DNA from: Sphingobacteriales bacterium | Lineage (GTDB): Bacteria; Bacteroidota; Bacteroidia; Sphingobacteriales; Sphingobacteriaceae | Reading direction: 5' to 3' | NCBI GenBank assembly: GCA_947505035.1 | Contig: CANNIS010000008.1 | Location: forward strand, 1-35,991 | Length of the DNA: 35,991 bases | In this document: positions 4,962 to 31,524 of the stretch, one piece after another | How positions within the stretch are numbered: the first letter of the stretch is position 1 | Layout of the letters: each line of letters starts with the position of its first letter | Notes under the pieces: model-generated | Databases searched by the model: none | Told to the model about the DNA's origin: nothing | What the model saw: the letters and a program-made list of their open reading frames with translations, nothing else | Made by a program: the position numbers and the translations under genes

Positions 4962-7892
4962 ATGCAAAGAACCGGCTATATACTTTTAATCTCCTTTTTT
5001 TTCTCCACATCCATTGTGAATGGACAGGTAGTAGATACGGCCAAAGCCAATCATTGGGTCGATTCGGTGATGAATACCTTGCAGACAGATGAACGAATTG
5101 GACAATTATTCACCGTTGCAGCCTTTTCAAACAAAGATTCCTTGCATATTAAAGAAATTGCCAAATTGGTTAAAGACTATAAAATAGGCGGCTTGTGTTT
5201 TTTTCAAGGCGGCCCAGTTCGCCAGGCAAACCTGACCAATTATTACCAATCCCTTGCTAAAACACCTTTATTGATTTCCATAGATGGAGAATGGGGTTTG
5301 TCGATGCGCTTAGATAGTACCGTAAGATATCCTAAACAAATGGCTTTGGGTGCCATCAACGATAACCAATTGATTTATGATTTTGGCGTAGAAACTGCAA
5401 GGCAATGTAAGCGAATGGGCATTCATTTAAATTTTGCACCGGTAGTAGATGTCAACAATAATCCACGCAATCCGGTTATTAACGATCGCTCTTTTGGCGA
5501 AGATAAATACCGCGTAGCCGCTAAGAGTATAGAATACATGCGGGGTTTACAAGACAATGGCTTAATTGCAACGGCTAAACATTTTCCGGGTCATGGCAAT
5601 ACCGATAAAGATTCTCATTTAACCTTGCCTAAATTAAATCGCAGTAAAGAAGAATTAGATAGTTTAGAATTATATCCATTCAAAGAACTCATCGATCGAG
5701 GATTGTCGAGCATCATGGTGGCGCATCTATTTGTACCGGCATATGATAGTTCAAAGAATATGGCCGCATCTATTTCGAAACCAATCGTTACCGATTTATT
5801 AAAAAATAAATTAAATTTTAAGGGACTGATTATTACCGATGCCTTAAACATGAAAGGCGTGTCGGCAAATTTTCCGCCCGGCGTAGTAGATGTAAAAGCT
5901 TTATTAGCGGGTAACGATATGTGTTTGTATTCCGAGAATGTACCCATTGCCATTGCAGAAATTAAAAAAGCAATGTTGGCTGGTGAAATTACCCAAGCCG
6001 AATTAGATGAAAAGGCTAGAAAGGTATTATTTGCTAAGTTTCAGGTAGGGCTTGCGCATTATCAACCGATTGTAATCGATGGCTTAATTGCCGATTTAAA
6101 TAGCAACGAAGCTAAATTACTGAGTCGTAAATTATACGAAAACGCACTTACTTTATTAGAAAATAAAAACAATCTAATTCCTTTAAAAAATTTAGCGAGT
6201 AGCAGCATTGCCAGTATTAGTATTGGGGCCGAAATCAATAATGATTTTTTAACGACTTGCGAATTATATGCGCCTATGGCTAAGTTTTCATTAAAGAAAG
6301 ACGCGAGCTTAAACGATTTTAATTTTTTAAATAAAAACTTAGAAAATTACAACACCGTAATTGTTGGCTTACACGATATGAGCAGAAACGAATCAAAGAA
6401 TTTTTCTTTGTCTAAGCAAACCATCGATTTTTTGAATAATTTATCTGCCCATAAAAATGTAGTCTTAGTGGTATTTGGTAATGCCTATAGTTTAAGAAAT
6501 TTCGAAAACCATGCGCCCATTGTATTGGCTTACGAAGAAAATTCTTATACGCGTACAAGTGCTGCTACGCTTATATTTGGTGGAATTCCGGCTAAAGGAA
6601 CGATGCCTGTTACGGCATCTAATAAATTTCAAGTAGGCGATGGTTATATCATCAACGAAAGCATTCGTTTAAAATATACCCAGCCCGAAGAAGTTGGCAT
6701 GGATGCGCAGAAATTAAACGGTATAGATGAATTAGTTGCCATGGCCATTGCCGCTAAAGCCATACCTGGCTGTCAAGTATTAGTGGCTAAAAATGGCAAA
6801 GTTATTTATCAAAAATCTTTTGGCTACAGTACTTACGATTCTGCTCATTTGGTGGTCAATACCGATTTATACGATTTAGCCTCGATGACCAAAATTTTAT
6901 CGACTAATTTAGGTATGATGAAATTAGTAGAAGAAAATAAAATTTCTTTGAATGGTCATTTGCATAATTATTTACCCGGAATTAAAAGTTCGAATAAGAA
7001 AAATATTATTATCGCAGACCTGTTAACTCACCGCGCAGGCTTATCGCCATTTATTCCTTTTTACAAAGACATTCAAAATGTAAAAGGCTTGGAAACAGCT
7101 GTGCTATCTACAGATTCTTCTGGTGTATTTGCCATTCCGGTTGCCAATCATTTGTTTTTAAATGCAAATTACATGGCCACTATGAAGCAACGAATACTCA
7201 AATCTGAAATAAAAAATCCAGGAAAATATGTGTACTCCGATTTGAGTTTTTATTTCTTAAAAGAAGTATTAGAGGCGCAAACAAATTCACCAATTGATGA
7301 ATTTGTCAGTACTCATTTTTATAAAAAATTGGGCTTGAATTATTTGGGTTATTTGCCATATCGCAAATTTCCAATGGCAAATATTATGCCTACCGAAAAC
7401 GACCTCACCTTTAGAAAACAAGTGGTACAAGGTTATGTGCACGATCAAACAGCTGCCATGTTTGGTGGTGTGGCGGGTCATGCTGGCTTGTTTGGTAATG
7501 CGAATGATGTAGCGATAATTATGCAAATGTTGCTAAACAAAGGAAGCTATGGTGGCGAAGAATATTTTAAATCGGCAACGGTAAGCTTGTTTACTACTAA
7601 ATATTATGCAGACAACAGAAGAGGTTTAGGTTTTGATAAGCCCGAAACGGATCCTTCCAAAACTAGCCCTACGGCATTAGCGGTATCACCGCAAACCTAC
7701 GGCCATACTGGCTTTACAGGCACTTGTACTTGGGTAGATCCAGCATATGATTTGGTTTATGTGTTCTTATCGAATAGGGTTTATCCTTCTACAGAGAATA
7801 AAAAAATGTTGGAAATGAATTTGCGTACCGAAATACAAGCAATTATTTATAATTCTTTTTCTGAAAATCTTGTTCAGGGAATTAAAAAATAA
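4962..7892 (+). CDS. secreted GH3 beta-N-acetylglucosaminidase fused to a beta-lactamase-like serine hydrolase
   Basis: 976 residues with a signal peptide (about 1-21, ending ...IVNGQ). Residues about 35-370 are a GH3 domain of the NagZ type. KHFPGHGNTDKDSH (206-219) gives the Asp-His acid/base pair D217/H219, and IITDALNMKG gives the nucleophile Asp293. About 380-560 looks like a GH3 C-terminal-type region. Residues about 590-965 are a class C beta-lactamase/penicillin-binding-type serine hydrolase with SMTK (Ser641, Lys644), YSD (Tyr758) and HTG (915-917). Both active sites are complete. NagZ-type enzymes remove GlcNAc from peptidoglycan fragments and the second domain family acts on peptide or ester bonds, so a periplasmic peptidoglycan-processing role is inferred. 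This two-domain arrangement is known in Bacteroidota. It is divergent from mutL with a 129-bp gap. Confidence 0.9.
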   Translation: MQRTGYILLISFFFSTSIVNGQVVDTAKANHWVDSVMNTLQTDERIGQLFTVAAFSNKDSLHIKEIAKLVKDYKIGGLCFFQGGPVRQANLTNYYQSLAKTPLLISIDGEWGLSMRLDSTVRYPKQMALGAINDNQLIYDFGVETARQCKRMGIHLNFAPVVDVNNNPRNPVINDRSFGEDKYRVAAKSIEYMRGLQDNGLIATAKHFPGHGNTDKDSHLTLPKLNRSKEELDSLELYPFKELIDRGLSSIMVAHLFVPAYDSSKNMAASISKPIVTDLLKNKLNFKGLIITDALNMKGVSANFPPGVVDVKALLAGNDMCLYSENVPIAIAEIKKAMLAGEITQAELDEKARKVLFAKFQVGLAHYQPIVIDGLIADLNSNEAKLLSRKLYENALTLLENKNNLIPLKNLASSSIASISIGAEINNDFLTTCELYAPMAKFSLKKDASLNDFNFLNKNLENYNTVIVGLHDMSRNESKNFSLSKQTIDFLNNLSAHKNVVLVVFGNAYSLRNFENHAPIVLAYEENSYTRTSAATLIFGGIPAKGTMPVTASNKFQVGDGYIINESIRLKYTQPEEVGMDAQKLNGIDELVAMAIAAKAIPGCQVLVAKNGKVIYQKSFGYSTYDSAHLVVNTDLYDLASMTKILSTNLGMMKLVEENKISLNGHLHNYLPGIKSSNKKNIIIADLLTHRAGLSPFIPFYKDIQNVKGLETAVLSTDSSGVFAIPVANHLFLNANYMATMKQRILKSEIKNPGKYVYSDLSFYFLKEVLEAQTNSPIDEFVSTHFYKKLGLNYLGYLPYRKFPMANIMPTENDLTFRKQVVQGYVHDQTAAMFGGVAGHAGLFGNANDVAIIMQMLLNKGSYGGEEYFKSATVSLFTTKYYADNRRGLGFDKPETDPSKTSPTALAVSPQTYGHTGFTGTCTWVDPAYDLVYVFLSNRVYPSTENKKMLEMNLRTEIQAIIYNSFSENLVQGIKK

Positions 7893-9201: not shown

Positions 9202-12200
9202 CTAATAATGGACGCCAAATGGAATTTTATAATTATTAATTAAGCCTTTTTCATCGAATAAACTAAAGCGTAAAATGTAAATGCCATTGGGTACATATTG
9301 GCCATTACAGATACCATCCCAAATAAAGTTTCCTTTTTGACCCAAGGAAATGGTGTTGCCAATTTGTGTAATGGCTTGACCCTCGCGATTATAAATATCA
9401 ATATTGGCCATAATGTTTGGATAGGGGAATGCATAGTGTATAGTTAAAATATCATTTACCCCATCGGCATTGGGAGAAAATATTTTAGGATTAATGTTTA
9501 AGCCAAATTCCCTGTCCGAAAAATATTGATGATTGGAGTTGCTATATCCAGGTGTGGCATAACCATAATTTGCTGCGGCCGATCCCCAATTAGCAAGGTC
9601 TTTGCTGCTCCAATTTTCGGAACGCCTTTCGAGCGAAACATTTTTAGTATTCGTAATTAAACTTAAATGCATTTGATCGGCATAATAAACTTCGTCGATG
9701 AGTTGTTGGTTCGGTGAAAGTAGCACTACGGTGCCCTGTTCGTTAGTAAGTGTAGGCATTTCGGGGTTGGTGATAAAATCGTTGACACTTTTAAAACCAA
9801 AATGATTTTGTAACAACGGCGCATTGGTGCTGATGCAAACATAATGTGCGGGTTGTAAAAAATAATTGGCTGCTATACTTTTACAATAACTAATTTCGTT
9901 CTTCGAATTTCGAACGCCAATGCACCAGTTTTTTAAATTTTGAATTTGATTCGAACGATTATATAATTCAATAAATTCGGGAAGGCTATCGCCGGTATTG
10001 AATAATAGCTCGTTGATGATGACTTGATTATGGTAAACACTATCGCTGATAAATAAAGGGAAAGTGCTGTCTATTTTTTGGCCTAGGCAATTTTGTAAAG
10101 CGTTAATTTGTATTTCAAATTTGCTTGCTATTGGAAATGCTTGTTGGTAAAACAAACGGAGTGTTTGGTAATTGTTGCTAAATTGATAATTAATTGGGCT
10201 ATTGGCTAAGCCAATTAATTGTATGGTATGCCAATCGAAAGCCGCGCTATCTATGCCCTCTGTACAAGTGATACTTATTTCCTGTTCGCTTAATTCGAGC
10301 TGTTTAATTTGGAATTCAGCCATTTGGCTCAATTCGAGCTGATTGCTTTTGGCCGGACTTCCACCTATTGCAGCTAAACTACTATGCCATAATTTTGTAT
10401 TAGGACAATCATAAAAATCATTCAAACGCGCTAAGCTGTATCCGCCTTCTCTTTTATTACTTTCCCATTGATTGATTTTATAAGAAACGCTGTCGATCAA
10501 TTGTAACTTTTCGTCAAATAAGTATAAGGTGTCAATGCTATTACCAATAGAAGGGAAACTGGTAATGCCAATGGTTTTTCCATATTTTAAAAAGGCATTG
10601 GTATCGCTGCGCTCACATAAGATGGCAAATGCATAAGGGGCTAAAGTATCTAATTCAAAAAAACGTTTACTGTTATGATTTCCAAAATAAAGTTGACAAG
10701 CACTCACACCTATCGCTGTCGGATTACTTATTTCAACAAATTCTAATTCGGGTAAACCTATGGCAGGTGTTGGATCTGCCATTATTTCGCTTATTTTTAA
10801 ACGAAGTGTTTGAAACGGAATATTTTTTCCAAATGATTGAATTATATTATAATCCCTGCCATCAAATGCGATGATATTTTTTGCATAAAATTGATATAAA
10901 CCTTTGTCAATTTCTTCATCAAAAGTCAAAACTAAATAATCTAAATAGGTCCAATCAAAAAAGTAATCGACCGGAAAAAATAAATGTTGGTTGCTATCTG
11001 CGATGTAAAATTGTATCGCATTAAAAGTTTGCGGTGCTATTTTATTATTGAATCGAATGGCAAGTTGATTTTTATTCAGGACATTTATGCTGCTAAGCGT
11101 TATGGCTAAAGTATCTATATGAAATTTTGCGATTTTATTTAAACTACCCGGGCTGCCGCCCATAATTTCTGTAGCGGCATTCCAATTGCCTGCAGTTTTA
11201 CATTTGCTATATGGGTCTATTTTTGCCAAGCTATAGCCACCATTGCTTTTGCTGACTTCTCTATACCAACTCAATCGGTAAGTAAGGCTGTCTATTATAA
11301 TCCCCGCTGGATTTTTTAAAGTCAGATGATCGTATGTATTGTTGAGTGTTGGCCAAATAGTACAACCAATGGTTTTACCATAGGCCCGATAAGCAAGGGT
11401 ATCGGCTACATTACATAAAATTAAATAAGCGCCTGGCAAAAGGCTGTCTTTCTTAAAAGTATAAGTACTACTGCCATCGCTGATACTATGGTTTTGTAGT
11501 TGAATAGTATAAGCTTGGGTATTATAGATTTCAATAAATTCGCCATTTGGCAAGCCTATGCTTGGGCTTGGGTCTGGATAGATTTCGTTCATCACTAAAT
11601 CTTGAAATTTTTCGGCGATGCTTGGTTTGAATATAAAGTTTATTTGGCTATCACTGCTGATTAAATAATTTCCAGAAAGATCTTTTAAATTTTTCAGCCT
11701 CAAAAAATGTTTACCATAATTTATGCTATCATTAAACTGAATTTGAAGGCTAAAAAAATTGAGCCAATGCGCCGAAATGGCCAATTGTTGACTGTCTAAT
11801 TCAAAATTAGCTAAATCTTGAATGGCAGTGCTATCCATGCTTTCGTTGAATTGCACAATTAATTGATGGCTATTTTTAGCAAAGCAACTCATTACCCTTG
11901 GTTGCAGCGAATCGATACTGCTCGGGTAGATTTTAATTTGATCAAATTGAAATAAATTGCTTCTTGTTGCGGTGTACCTGACCAATATTCCAAAATACTT
12001 ATTACTATAATTTAAAGAATCTGCTACGCTACCTAATGCCTGATAATTACTGGCCGTATCATTCGCTGCAAACAGCGACCACCTGCCATCGCTTGCGCGA
12101 GTGATTTTTATTTTTGTAAAAAGCGTATCGGTTTTGAGTCGAGGCATTGCCGGGCCGTCAATTATTTTGATCAGGCTATTTCCTTTTTGCCGGTACAAAT

Positions 12201-12567
12201 CATACGAATCGGTATTGCCACTTTCGCCAATTTGCAAGAAATAACCATTCAGACTTTTGTCTAATGTAGCGGCATCGGCAATTAAATAGATGCGAGTATA
12301 GTTACTAGTAGAGGGGTCGAATAAAAGTTTAAGTTGAAATTCCCAAGTGGTGTTTAAATTAATTGTGGATGCAGTAGTTAGGAAACAAGTATCGGTTTTT
12401 GTCGACATTTTTGTTTGCATGTGCCCCATACCGCTCACATAAAATGCTGCCGTATCTCCCAACCACTGCGGATTGCTACTCAAATCGCCATCACTAAAAT
12501 CATCCTGCACTTGCCCAAAAACCAGCGAATGAATAAACAATCCTAAAATCCACAATATCTTTTTCAT
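9202..12567 (-). CDS. large secreted lamin-tail-domain protein with gliding-motility/T9SS C-terminal domain
   Basis: 1121 residues. A signal peptide (about 1-19, ending SLVFGQ) is followed by a region of about 190 residues resembling a carbohydrate-binding/LamG-like jelly roll. Three lamin-tail-type beta-sandwich domains follow: about 324-460 (VMNEIYPDPSPSIGLPNGEF), about 590-735 (ISEIMADPTPAIGLPELEF) and about 845-960 (VIINELLFNTGDSLPEFIEL). The first two each end with a GGYSLA...GGSP module. The last about 90 residues contain NPKIFSPNADGVND, an IYNREG segment, WDG and PNGIYIL, the C-terminal signature of gliding-motility-associated T9SS cargo. It is probably exported by type IX secretion and displayed on the cell surface. 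It has no recognisable catalytic motif, so it may be structural or adhesive. It is divergent from asd. Confidence 0.85.
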   Translation of the reverse strand: MKKILWILGLFIHSLVFGQVQDDFSDGDLSSNPQWLGDTAAFYVSGMGHMQTKMSTKTDTCFLTTASTINLNTTWEFQLKLLFDPSTSNYTRIYLIADAATLDKSLNGYFLQIGESGNTDSYDLYRQKGNSLIKIIDGPAMPRLKTDTLFTKIKITRASDGRWSLFAANDTASNYQALGSVADSLNYSNKYFGILVRYTATRSNLFQFDQIKIYPSSIDSLQPRVMSCFAKNSHQLIVQFNESMDSTAIQDLANFELDSQQLAISAHWLNFFSLQIQFNDSINYGKHFLRLKNLKDLSGNYLISSDSQINFIFKPSIAEKFQDLVMNEIYPDPSPSIGLPNGEFIEIYNTQAYTIQLQNHSISDGSSTYTFKKDSLLPGAYLILCNVADTLAYRAYGKTIGCTIWPTLNNTYDHLTLKNPAGIIIDSLTYRLSWYREVSKSNGGYSLAKIDPYSKCKTAGNWNAATEIMGGSPGSLNKIAKFHIDTLAITLSSINVLNKNQLAIRFNNKIAPQTFNAIQFYIADSNQHLFFPVDYFFDWTYLDYLVLTFDEEIDKGLYQFYAKNIIAFDGRDYNIIQSFGKNIPFQTLRLKISEIMADPTPAIGLPELEFVEISNPTAIGVSACQLYFGNHNSKRFFELDTLAPYAFAILCERSDTNAFLKYGKTIGITSFPSIGNSIDTLYLFDEKLQLIDSVSYKINQWESNKREGGYSLARLNDFYDCPNTKLWHSSLAAIGGSPAKSNQLELSQMAEFQIKQLELSEQEISITCTEGIDSAAFDWHTIQLIGLANSPINYQFSNNYQTLRLFYQQAFPIASKFEIQINALQNCLGQKIDSTFPLFISDSVYHNQVIINELLFNTGDSLPEFIELYNRSNQIQNLKNWCIGVRNSKNEISYCKSIAANYFLQPAHYVCISTNAPLLQNHFGFKSVNDFITNPEMPTLTNEQGTVVLLSPNQQLIDEVYYADQMHLSLITNTKNVSLERRSENWSSKDLANWGSAAANYGYATPGYSNSNHQYFSDREFGLNINPKIFSPNADGVNDILTIHYAFPYPNIMANIDIYNREGQAITQIGNTISLGQKGNFIWDGICNGQYVPNGIYILRFSLFDEKGLINNYKIPFGVHY

Positions 12568-28037: not shown

Positions 28038-28784
28038 ATGATTCGGTTAAGAAAAATTGCATTATTTATGTTTGTGCTTTTTTTAACTGCTTGTAGTAAG
28101 CAGTTAATTTTAAAGCAAACTAATATTTCGCAAATCAATGTTGCCGCTAAGGTACAACCCGATCAATCGATACTAGATTTTTATGCTCCTTTTAAAAAGT
28201 CTTTAGACTCGCAAATGAATCGCGTAGTTGGTTCAAGTGCCATTGCCTTAGCTAAAAATAGTCCAGATAATAATTTAAGTATTTTCTTTGCCGATGCAGT
28301 TACAGCATCTTGTAAGCAGCGCAATGCGGTTTTTGATTTTGCATTTCCAACAACTAACGGAGGTATTCGCAATTCGATGCCCCAAGGCGATTGGACTTTG
28401 CGCAATATATATGAGCTCATGCCTTTCGAAAACGAATGTGTATTGCTTACTATTTCAGGAAAAAAAATAAATAGTTTAGTTGATTTTATTATTGCCAAAG
28501 GAGGCCAACCACTTGCCGGGATTACTATTCAAGCAATTGCTCCTGCCGCAGCAATTGTTAAAATCAATGGCTTAGCAGTAGATACCAATCGCACTTATAT
28601 CGTACTTACCTCCGATTATTTAGCCAATGGGGGCGATGGAATTATGGCATTTGCAAAACCCATCAACAAAGCGAGCCTTCATTATAAAATTCGAGATGCC
28701 ATTTTAGATTATGTGCAATCGCAACAACTTATAGGTAAAACCATTAATCCAAACATCGATGGAAGAATTAGCATCCAGCAGTAG
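28038..28784 (+). CDS. lipoprotein with 5'-nucleotidase C-terminal domain
   Basis: About 248 residues from ATG 28038. An in-frame ATG at 28014 lies inside the mutase gene; starting at 28038 places a proper lipoprotein signal (MIRLRKIALFMFVLFLTACSKQ, lipobox LTAC) at the N-terminus. The rest is the substrate-recognition domain of 5'-nucleotidases: FADAVTASCKQRNAVFDFAF, TNGGIRNSMPQGDWTLRNIYELMPFEN and VLTSDYLANGGDG. The FAFPTTNGG stretch corresponds to the region holding the nucleoside-stacking site and the arginine of the normal enzyme. No metal-binding motifs are present; these are in the next gene. Probably anchored in the outer or inner membrane facing the periplasm. Confidence 0.88.
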   Translation: MIRLRKIALFMFVLFLTACSKQLILKQTNISQINVAAKVQPDQSILDFYAPFKKSLDSQMNRVVGSSAIALAKNSPDNNLSIFFADAVTASCKQRNAVFDFAFPTTNGGIRNSMPQGDWTLRNIYELMPFENECVLLTISGKKINSLVDFIIAKGGQPLAGITIQAIAPAAAIVKINGLAVDTNRTYIVLTSDYLANGGDGIMAFAKPINKASLHYKIRDAILDYVQSQQLIGKTINPNIDGRISIQQ

Positions 28785-29721
28785 AAGATCCTTTATCAAA
28801 AAATTATCGGCATCGGCTGCATTATTGGCAATCGGTGCTAATCCTTTAGCTGCAACTGCTAAAGAACGAATCACTAAGCTTACTATCTTGCACACCAACG
28901 ATGTACACAGTCGAATCGAACCTTTTCCAGAAGATGGTTCGAGAAATGCTGGATTAGGAGGGGTGGCAAGACGTGCTTCGCTTATAAAGCAAATTAGAGC
29001 AGAAGAAGCACAGGTCTTATTATTAGATGCAGGCGATATTTTTCAAGGAACACCTTATTTCAATTTATATGGAGGCGAACTCGAGATTAAACTCATGTCT
29101 AAATTGGGATATGATGCCGCAACCATGGGTAACCACGATTTTGATGCAGGTATAGATGGTTTTGATAAACAATTAAAACATGCCAATTTTCCATTTTTGA
29201 TTGCGAATTATGATTTCAGCGGAACGGTACTAGAAGGTAAAACGCAGCCTTTCAAGGTGTTTCATAAAGGAGCACTCAAAATAGGGGTGTTTGGTTTGGG
29301 TATTGCACTCGAAGGTTTAGTCGAGGCAAGCAATTACGGTCAAGTCAAATACCTCGATCCAATTCCAGTAGCCAATCAAATTGCCAATCAATTAAAGCTA
29401 GAGCATCAATGTGATTTAGTGATCTGCCTCTCTCATTTAGGCTATTCTTATAAAGACAATAAAGTCTCAGACAAGGTCTTAGCCGATCAAACAAGTGGTA
29501 TCGACCTCATTATAGGTGCGCATACCCACACCTTCATGACGGCGCCTGAAATACGCAAAAACAAGCAAGGAGAAGAGGTAAGGATATTCCAAGTAGGTTT
29601 TGCAGGGATAAATTTGGGTCGAATAGACTATTATTTTGAAAAAGGGCGCAAGAAAAAGCAAGCTATTGGGCTTGCGATGCGAATAGACCAACAATTGAAC
29701 GACGATTTTGAGATTGCTTAG
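28759..29721 (+). CDS. Tat-exported 5'-nucleotidase metallophosphatase domain protein
   Basis: 320 residues, overlapping the preceding gene by 26 bp in another frame. The N-terminus SSRRSFIKKLSASAALLAIG carries the twin-arginine motif SRRSFIK, followed by a hydrophobic stretch and an AATAKE cleavage-like site. The metallophosphatase domain shows LHTNDVHSR (Asp48, His50), LDAGDIFQGTP (Asp93), MGNHDFD (Asn125, His126), CLSHLGY and GAHTHTFM, the full dinuclear metal site. In most bacteria this domain is joined to the C-terminal domain in one chain; here the C-terminal domain is the separate upstream gene. The start could instead be internal, but the Tat motif supports 28759. The two products presumably act together in the periplasm to hydrolyse nucleotides or UDP-sugars. 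Confidence 0.88.
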   Translation: MEELASSSRRSFIKKLSASAALLAIGANPLAATAKERITKLTILHTNDVHSRIEPFPEDGSRNAGLGGVARRASLIKQIRAEEAQVLLLDAGDIFQGTPYFNLYGGELEIKLMSKLGYDAATMGNHDFDAGIDGFDKQLKHANFPFLIANYDFSGTVLEGKTQPFKVFHKGALKIGVFGLGIALEGLVEASNYGQVKYLDPIPVANQIANQLKLEHQCDLVICLSHLGYSYKDNKVSDKVLADQTSGIDLIIGAHTHTFMTAPEIRKNKQGEEVRIFQVGFAGINLGRIDYYFEKGRKKKQAIGLAMRIDQQLNDDFEIA

Positions 29722-30096: not shown

Positions 30097-31524
30097 ATGA
30101 TAGAAACTAGCACAGCAGTATGGGAGAATTGTCTTAAGATTATTAAAGACAACGTGCCGACACAAAGCTTTAAGACTTGGTTTGAACCAATCAAAGCTTT
30201 AAAATTAGATGGATCCGTGCTTACCATCCAAGTACCTAGTTTGTTTTTCTACGAATGGTTAGAAGAGCACTACGTAAATTTATTGCGTAAAACCATTAAA
30301 CACGAATTGGGAGCAGACGCTCGTTTAGAATACAACATTGTAGTAGATAACGCTACCGCAAATTCTAAAGCACAAACCATTAATATTCCAGCATCTCCAA
30401 ATGGAGAGTTGAAAAACCCTTCGGTGCCAATTCCGGTTACCGTTCCTTCTTCTATCCGTAATCCTTTCGTGATTCCTGGATTAAAGAAAATAAACATTGA
30501 CAGTCAATTAAATTCAAAATATTCATTCGATAATTTTGTTGAAGGAGATTGCAATCGTTTAGCGCGCTCTGCGGGCTTTGCAGTTGCAAACAAGCCAGGA
30601 GGCACTTCTTTTAATCCTTTGATGATATATGGCCCTACAGGCTTAGGCAAGACCCATTTAGTACATGCCATTGGTGGTGCTATTAAAGATCGTTTTCCCG
30701 AAAAACAAGTATTGTATGTAAATGCAGAAAAATTTACACAACAATTTGTGGAGTCGATGAAAAACAATACCATCAACGACTTTAAAAACTTCTATCAATT
30801 AATAGATGTATTAATTTTAGATGACGTTCACAATTTTGCAGGTAAAGAAAAAACACAAGATATTTTCTTCCATATTTTTAACGAACTACATCAAACCAAT
30901 AAACAAATTGTTTTAACTTCAGATAAACCACCTAAAGATTTAATCGGAGTAGAAGATCGTTTATTGTCTCGTTTCAAATGGGGTTTAACAGCAGATTTGC
31001 AAATTCCAGATTTTGAAACTAGAATGGCTATTCTTTACAAGAAGATGCAATTAGATGGTATTGAATTACCACAAGATGTAGTAGAATACGTTGCGCATAA
31101 TATTGATAGTAACATGCGTGACCTAGAAGGAGCAATGGTTTCCTTGTTAGCGCACTCTACTTTAAACAAAAAAGAAATCGATTTGCCTTTAGCAAAACAG
31201 ATGCTAAAGAATTTCATAAAAAATTCTAGTAAAGAAATTTCGATAGAATATATTCAAAAATTAGTGTGTGAATATTTCGAAGTGCCAGTAGAATTATTAA
31301 AATCGCAAACGCGCAAAAGAGAAATTGTTCAAGCAAGACAAATCTCTATGTACCTTGCAAAAAGCCATACAAAATCTTCTCTGAAGTCTATTGGCATGCA
31401 CTTTGGAGGCAGAGATCACTCTACGGTAATTTATGCTTGTCAAACTGTTGAAGACTTAATAGACACCGATAAAAAATTCCGTGCTTATGTAGCCGACATT
31501 CAGAAAAAATTAAAATTAAGCTAA
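30097..31524 (+). CDS. dnaA: chromosomal replication initiator DnaA
   Basis: 475 residues, full length. DnaA binds origin DNA boxes and opens the duplex. Domain I (about 1-90) includes AVWENCLKIIKDNVPTQSFKTW. A linker (about 90-135) follows. The AAA+ domain has Walker A GPTGLGKT (179-186), Walker B LILDDVH (Asp242, Asp243) and sensor/arginine-finger region SRFKWGL. Domain IV ends with the DNA-binding signature GMHFGGRDHSTVIYAC. It is a single-gene unit: 375 bp AT-rich leader upstream and a strong hairpin terminator just downstream. No dnaN or gyrase gene adjoins, which is common in Bacteroidota. Confidence 0.97.
   Translation: MIETSTAVWENCLKIIKDNVPTQSFKTWFEPIKALKLDGSVLTIQVPSLFFYEWLEEHYVNLLRKTIKHELGADARLEYNIVVDNATANSKAQTINIPASPNGELKNPSVPIPVTVPSSIRNPFVIPGLKKINIDSQLNSKYSFDNFVEGDCNRLARSAGFAVANKPGGTSFNPLMIYGPTGLGKTHLVHAIGGAIKDRFPEKQVLYVNAEKFTQQFVESMKNNTINDFKNFYQLIDVLILDDVHNFAGKEKTQDIFFHIFNELHQTNKQIVLTSDKPPKDLIGVEDRLLSRFKWGLTADLQIPDFETRMAILYKKMQLDGIELPQDVVEYVAHNIDSNMRDLEGAMVSLLAHSTLNKKEIDLPLAKQMLKNFIKNSSKEISIEYIQKLVCEYFEVPVELLKSQTRKREIVQARQISMYLAKSHTKSSLKSIGMHFGGRDHSTVIYACQTVEDLIDTDKKFRAYVADIQKKLKLS

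Follow-up and report, generated by a model that had tools for sequence, protein, structure and literature searches.

The window analyzed here, a 35,991-nucleotide stretch of contig CANNIS010000008.1 (GenBank assembly GCA_947505035.1) from a Sphingobacteriales bacterium, contains two overlapping genes that encode the two domains of a probable 5′-nucleotidase as separate, predicted exported proteins. We call the first gene C, as it encodes the substrate-binding domain that is C-terminal in single-chain enzymes, and the second gene N, which encodes the metallophosphatase domain. Our results bear out an earlier note, made from the DNA letters of the window, in its account of the coordinates, domains, and signals of both genes, in its description of a split enzyme with reversed gene order (PF02872 gene first, PF00149 gene second), and in the overlap of exactly 26 bp (Table 1). 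The source genome assembly (1.68 Mb, 136 contigs, estimated completeness 84%) contains one PF02872 protein, one TatC, and one TatA; the search for tatA and tatC, genes of the twin-arginine translocation (Tat) system, that the note proposed thus found both.

Table 1. Features of the C-N gene pair (positions are those of the window; aa, amino acids)
Feature	Positions	Strand	Basis
Gene C, lipoprotein with PF02872 substrate-binding domain, 248 aa	28038..28784	+	ATG start, Pfam, model
Lipoprotein signal peptide of C, lipobox LTAC (L16-T-A-C19)	28038..28094 (Cys19, 28092-28094)	+	sequence
C residues 43-60, helix equivalent to CD73/UshA linker helix, holds K53	28164..28217	+	secondary structure, CD73 alignment, coupling
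C substrate-site residues R111, F130, N132, Y194, D200	28368..28640	+	UshA alignment
Gene N, PF00149 metallophosphatase with Tat signal, 320 aa	28759..29721	+	ATG start, Pfam, model
Predicted Tat signal peptide of N, motif SRRSFIK at 28780-28800	28759..28860	+	sequence, TIGR01409
Overlap of C and N reading frames, 26 bp	28759..28784	+	sequence
N metal-site/catalytic residues D48, H50, D93, N125, H126, D129, H226, H255, H257	28900..29529	+	
N Glu54, coupled to C Lys53	28918..28920	+	coupling, tree contrasts

In gene C, PF02872 covers residues 73-206 (E 1.3e-18) and is the only Pfam match, and the N terminus, MIRLRKIALFMFVLFLTAC, is a plain lipoprotein signal ending in the lipobox LTAC. In gene N, PF00149 covers residues 42-258 (E 1.1e-17) and is overlapped by a weaker PGA_cap match. 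The NCBIfam Tat-signal model TIGR01409 scores 20.4 bits on N against a cut-off of 16.7, with the motif S-R9-R10-S-F-I-K ahead of a hydrophobic run, and the residues A-T-A probably mark the end of the signal peptide. The stop codon of C (28782-28784) shares bases with the N codons Ser8 and Arg9, which are read in a different frame.

AlphaFold single-chain models, made from 54 sequences for N and 52 for C, had a mean predicted local distance difference test score of 88.1 and 92.3, respectively. Both match the Thermus 5′-nucleotidase 2z1a (Z 35.5 for N, 24.3 for C), CD73, and UshA. On CD73 (4h2f) the N model spans residues 26-316 and the C model 317-549, together 26-549; on UshA (1hp1) they span 30-341 and 342-550. 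Because the cut in CD73 falls between residues 316 and 317, C begins with the equivalent of the linker helix, and the models place the split point just before it. Alignments of C that start from residue ∼54-59 have a root-mean-square deviation of 1.6-2.5, and those that include the helix (from 40-42) 2.3-4.7, with open and closed forms among the latter, a difference that suggests a hinge inside C. The hinge region of UshA is consistent with this placement.

The residues expected at an active site are retained in both proteins. Among 222 pairs, each of the nine N residues in Table 1, which we take by analogy to UshA to have metal-binding or catalytic roles, is invariant (222/222). In C, Arg111 is present in 219 of these pairs, Phe or Tyr at position 130 and Asn132 in all 222, an aromatic residue at 194 in all 222, and Asp200 in 200. 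By alignment, C residues R111, F130, N132, Y194, and D200 correspond to R410, F429, N431, F498, and D504 of UshA, presumably its substrate-site residues. The pair therefore has the metallophosphatase domain, the PF02872 domain with an aromatic sandwich plus Arg, Asn, and Asp, and both folds of the UshA/CD73 family; it departs from the family pattern of both domains in one chain, catalytic first, by having two genes with C first.

The arrangement recurs widely, well beyond what chance would give. We examined 252 loci, of which 240 contain a split pair, five only C, four only N, two a fused gene, and one neither (the TatC locus L001); three of the four N-only loci (L009, L023, L029) are fused proteins whose C part the profile missed, and two of the five C-only loci (L211, L233) run into contig ends. 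When identical N proteins were counted once, 226 distinct pairs were left, and C precedes N on the same strand in every one (226/226). A twin-arginine (RR) motif was found on N in 200/226 pairs and on C in 6/226, whereas a lipobox, the pattern for which was widened after a first pass, was found on C in 215/226 and on N in 13/226. RR on N occurs together with a lipobox on C in 191 pairs, and neither signal was found in two, one of which is a fragment (L062). The survey of signal types in homologous pairs for which the earlier note called thus extends to the family the division of signals seen at the first locus. A relaxed [RK][RK] pattern matches N in 219 of the 226 pairs, and the N of L252 holds NRRAFL and fell below our hydrophobicity filter.

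Surface-exposed lipoproteins of Bacteroidota carry an acid-rich export signal just after the lipid-bearing cysteine, and gene C lacks such a signal. The five positions after this Cys, SKQLI in the window, contain no acidic residue in 185 of 217 pairs and one in the other 32. The lack of acidic residues here favors a periplasmic face as the predicted location of C.

The two genes are also inherited together. In a class sample of 295 genomes from the host's class, our own N profile (E 1e-60 or better) matches 160 genomes; in one of these (G226, locus L022) the protein is fused, leaving 159/295 with a split-type N. PF02872 is present in 184/295 genomes, namely in 155/160 with the N match versus 29/135 without it (Fisher p 6.6e-46, a value that overstates the association because the genomes are related). 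Of the five genomes with N and no PF02872 match, two (G151 and G155) are cut off at the edge of the contig that carries N, and the other three (G061, G098, and G130) have a diverged upstream C-like gene that PF02872 missed, which our own C profile matched at 55.7 bits in G061, at 61.8 bits in G098, and partially (19.2 bits) in G130. At least three genomes keep C and N once each at non-adjacent sites (G490, locus L080; G042; G113), and the retention of both genes though apart points to a working pair rather than to mere neighbours.

A mean-field coupling analysis was performed on 222 pairs (effective number, 184). The top inter-protein coupling joins N residue 54 and C residue 53 (z 14.2; one long-range within-chain pair scores higher). 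The sum of the top 25 inter-protein scores was 27.3 with the true pairing versus 18.8-19.5 in three random re-pairings, a weak control because re-pairing also destroys shared ancestry. Residues 43-60 of C account for 9 of the top 25 inter-protein pairs (2.1 expected, p 1.3e-4) and for 11 of the top 50 (4.3 expected). At the N54-C53 positions, Glu-Lys is found in 67 pairs, Asp-Arg in 66, Asp-Lys in 51, Glu-Arg in 8, and other combinations in 30 (Fisher p 6e-11 on the four acid-base combinations), so that, as judged from sequence, this is a size-matched acid-base pair. In independent contrasts on a tree built without the column tested, C53 differed as expected in 6.3 of 18 contrasts taken from N54 differences and in the opposite sense in 0.0 on average (median p 0.03); the reverse contrasts, taken from C53, gave 7.3 of 14 in the expected sense and 0.0 opposite on average (median p 0.016), and a single contrary pair appeared in a few of the 200 draws. 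This coupling supports a predicted docking of the C linker helix on N.

From the domain content, export signals, gene order, conservation, joint inheritance, and coupled residues described above, we consider it probable that C and N are the subunits of a UshA/CD73-type extracytoplasmic nucleotidase that assembles in the periplasm. N would be the catalytic half and C the substrate-binding half, made as separate proteins. C would be exported by the general secretory (Sec) pathway, lipidated at Cys19, and held at a membrane on the periplasmic side, and N would take the Tat route, probably in a folded state; the earlier note's proposal that N folds together with its metals ahead of export is plausible. 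The N-terminal helix of C would dock on N through contacts that include a salt bridge between N54 and C53, F130 and Y194 of C would sandwich the nucleotide base, and C would rotate about its internal hinge to bring the phosphate to the dimetal site of N. By analogy with a dissected enzyme described below, N by itself may have weak phosphodiesterase activity and become a nucleotidase in the presence of C. Tentatively, and with more doubt, this proposal might be taken further: the pair could be an ancient nucleotidase that strictly needs both components, which would pass through the inner membrane by different machineries and come together only on its far side. The C helix would then fasten C non-covalently to the Tat-exported N as C swings about its internal hinge, and full activity would arise only where the lipoprotein is anchored.

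Several observations weigh against a two-subunit nucleotidase exported in this way. The N54-C53 pair was chosen after the fact from an alignment with an effective number of only 184, which makes it good but not final evidence for a contact between the chains, and the excess of inter-protein pairs in C residues 43-60 fades to 15 of the top 100 (8.5 expected, p 0.02). By alignment, Gln254 of UshA is replaced by His257 in N, a change that may alter the preference for metal or substrate. In addition, genome G220 has a second, lone, weakly matching PF02872 gene (L008), with no N in the surrounding 3.5-kb stretch. Such a lone C-like gene would be in keeping with an alternative in which N were a stand-alone phosphodiesterase or phosphatase and C a separate nucleotide-binding lipoprotein, co-inherited because both serve a shared pathway. 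We judge this alternative unlikely, as the two halves sum to one CD73-like enzyme with no part missing, C keeps its substrate residues, and the C helix is coupled to N.

The remaining contrary observations concern the export of N. In one family, five pairs (L178, L180, L195, L206, and L209) have Sec-like N signals, although their genomes (G139, G073, G199, G170, and G032) all have TatC; the Tat part is therefore not strictly required. No TatC was found in 9 of the 160 genomes with N, several of which are incomplete assemblies; in three of the nine, all of one genus (G098, G130, and G061), N carries an unusual RRR signal that includes a lipobox. Both the Sec-like signals and the nine genomes in which TatC was not found could be accommodated if the RR motif were incidental and N, like C, were exported by Sec. 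This reading is distinctly unlikely: the RRxF[ILV] motifs on N fit the Tat consensus (F in 195/200, and K, R, or Q at the last place in 177/200), TIGR01409 scores above its cut-off on N, and C, which is itself exported, matches the RR pattern in only the six pairs noted above. TatC presence is uninformative as a test of Tat use because 276/295 class genomes have TatC; it is missing in 9/160 genomes with N and in 10/135 without N (p 0.64). An RR motif also occurs in 6 of 25 fused enzymes of the class, and lipobox-like signals occur in others, so Tat signals are shared by split and fused forms.

In the three TatC-less genomes of one genus (loci L278, L279, and L280 in G098, G130, and G061, respectively), N starts with RRR, its signal ends in an LSSC or LPSC lipobox, and the upstream C is strongly diverged. 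This genus may show, in nature, what becomes of the pair once Tat is lost.

That one gene was split by an assembly or frameshift artefact, as overlapping frames that differ by one base might suggest, has a negligible probability and is ruled out by an order reversed relative to the fused enzyme, by the separate signal of each gene, and by recurrence in 226 distinct pairs.

The spacing of the genes bears on a further claim, that the overlap provides for balanced synthesis. In 178 pairs only one start is possible for N; of these, 106 overlap (28 of the 178 by exactly 26 bp), 47 are separated by 0-50 bp, and 25 lie farther apart; across pairs, the spacing runs from a 32-bp overlap to gaps of hundreds of bp. 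With an overlap of variable length, and with C and N apart in at least the three genomes named above, balanced synthesis is weakly supported, and the idea that overlapping genes generally serve to equalize the output of the two proteins is not supported.

The earlier note allowed that split versions may occur in other Bacteroidota; they do, but they are not rare, since they are common in the class (159/295) and found in 12 genomes of other classes. In a phylum sample of 198 genomes, those 12 gave N matches of at least 343 bits in frames of 312-442 aa, with C upstream of N in all 12 (L241-L252), and below them the N scores fall to 189 bits, mostly in long frames of fused genes. Among the 80 best-matching loci of named genomes, C lies upstream of N within the stretch examined in 79, the exception being L080; loci with the pair include those of Flavobacterium, Chryseobacterium, Hymenobacter, Pontibacter, Pedobacter, Sphingobacterium, and Saprospiraceae. 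A pattern for gene C hit 11 stretches of viral contigs, none of them a relative.

In a tree of 88 N domains (63 split and 25 fused) built by a quick method, all 63 split rows fall in one group (Shimodaira-Hasegawa-like approximate likelihood-ratio test, 99), together with a single fused row, the long-branched L022; the other 24 of 25 fused rows lie outside it. The fused/split label needs two changes on this tree, the deep order of which is unsure because long branches meet there, and a single origin of the split form is still compatible with it. For the family with Sec-like N signals, the tree cannot tell loss of a Tat signal from its never having been present. L022 (in G226) encodes a fused 520-aa lipoprotein whose N domain groups with split N domains; it is a candidate for a fused ancestor or a re-fusion.

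Directly after the C-N pair, the window contains dnaA (30097-31524, + strand). Of the 77 named loci (L063-L142) that have at least 400 bp after N, 40 likewise have dnaA downstream of N in the same orientation. Elsewhere, the window encodes a 1121-aa protein in which lamin-tail domains are combined with a CHU_C type IX secretion domain (9202-12567, - strand) and a 976-aa protein in which a glycoside hydrolase family 3 domain is fused to a beta-lactamase-like domain (4962-7892, + strand).

The C-N pair bears on a published gap of ushA-like genes in Bacteroidota classes. As far as the available text of a 2023 tblastn survey goes (PMC10454023), ushA-like genes were negative in Chitinophagia, Cytophagia, Flavobacteriia, Saprospiria, and Sphingobacteriia, and matches were counted only at a score >150 and a query coverage >70%. 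A split gene would fail this coverage rule, and the split form may explain the negatives in these five classes. In the titles and abstract openings of the open-licence literature searched, no description of the split pair was found. A metallophosphatase in PMC5742166 was set aside, as the accessible part of that paper assigns it to proteins with a Por secretion tail.

Among known systems, the fused 5′-nucleotidase-like proteins of the class have the same two domains and, in some, the same RR motif, and differ in being one polypeptide and, with the one exception noted above, in lying outside the split N group. The 3′-nucleotidase/cyclic phosphodiesterase CpdB of Escherichia coli likewise has catalytic and specificity domains with separable roles; as described in the available text of PMC7922932, its C domain made separately is inactive and its N domain strongly impaired on 3′-AMP, but CpdB is one chain whose domains were separated only in the laboratory. 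CD73, the human ecto-5′-nucleotidase, resembles both halves in fold (Z ∼35 for N and ∼23 for C) and differs in being one chain with a covalent linker helix. UshA, the periplasmic 5′-nucleotidase/UDP-sugar hydrolase of E. coli, has the same two domains and the same metal, catalytic, and substrate residues except Q254 (His here) and F498 (Tyr here), in one chain with the catalytic domain first and without the Tat/lipoprotein pair of signals. The C-N pair would work like UshA in an architecture that is not single-chain, and it offers a model for how two proteins that leave the cytoplasm along separate routes come together. UshA and CD73 are the textbook cases in which a single chain achieves catalysis through a large rotation of a domain, and a natural two-chain version lets the need for the covalent linker be tested.
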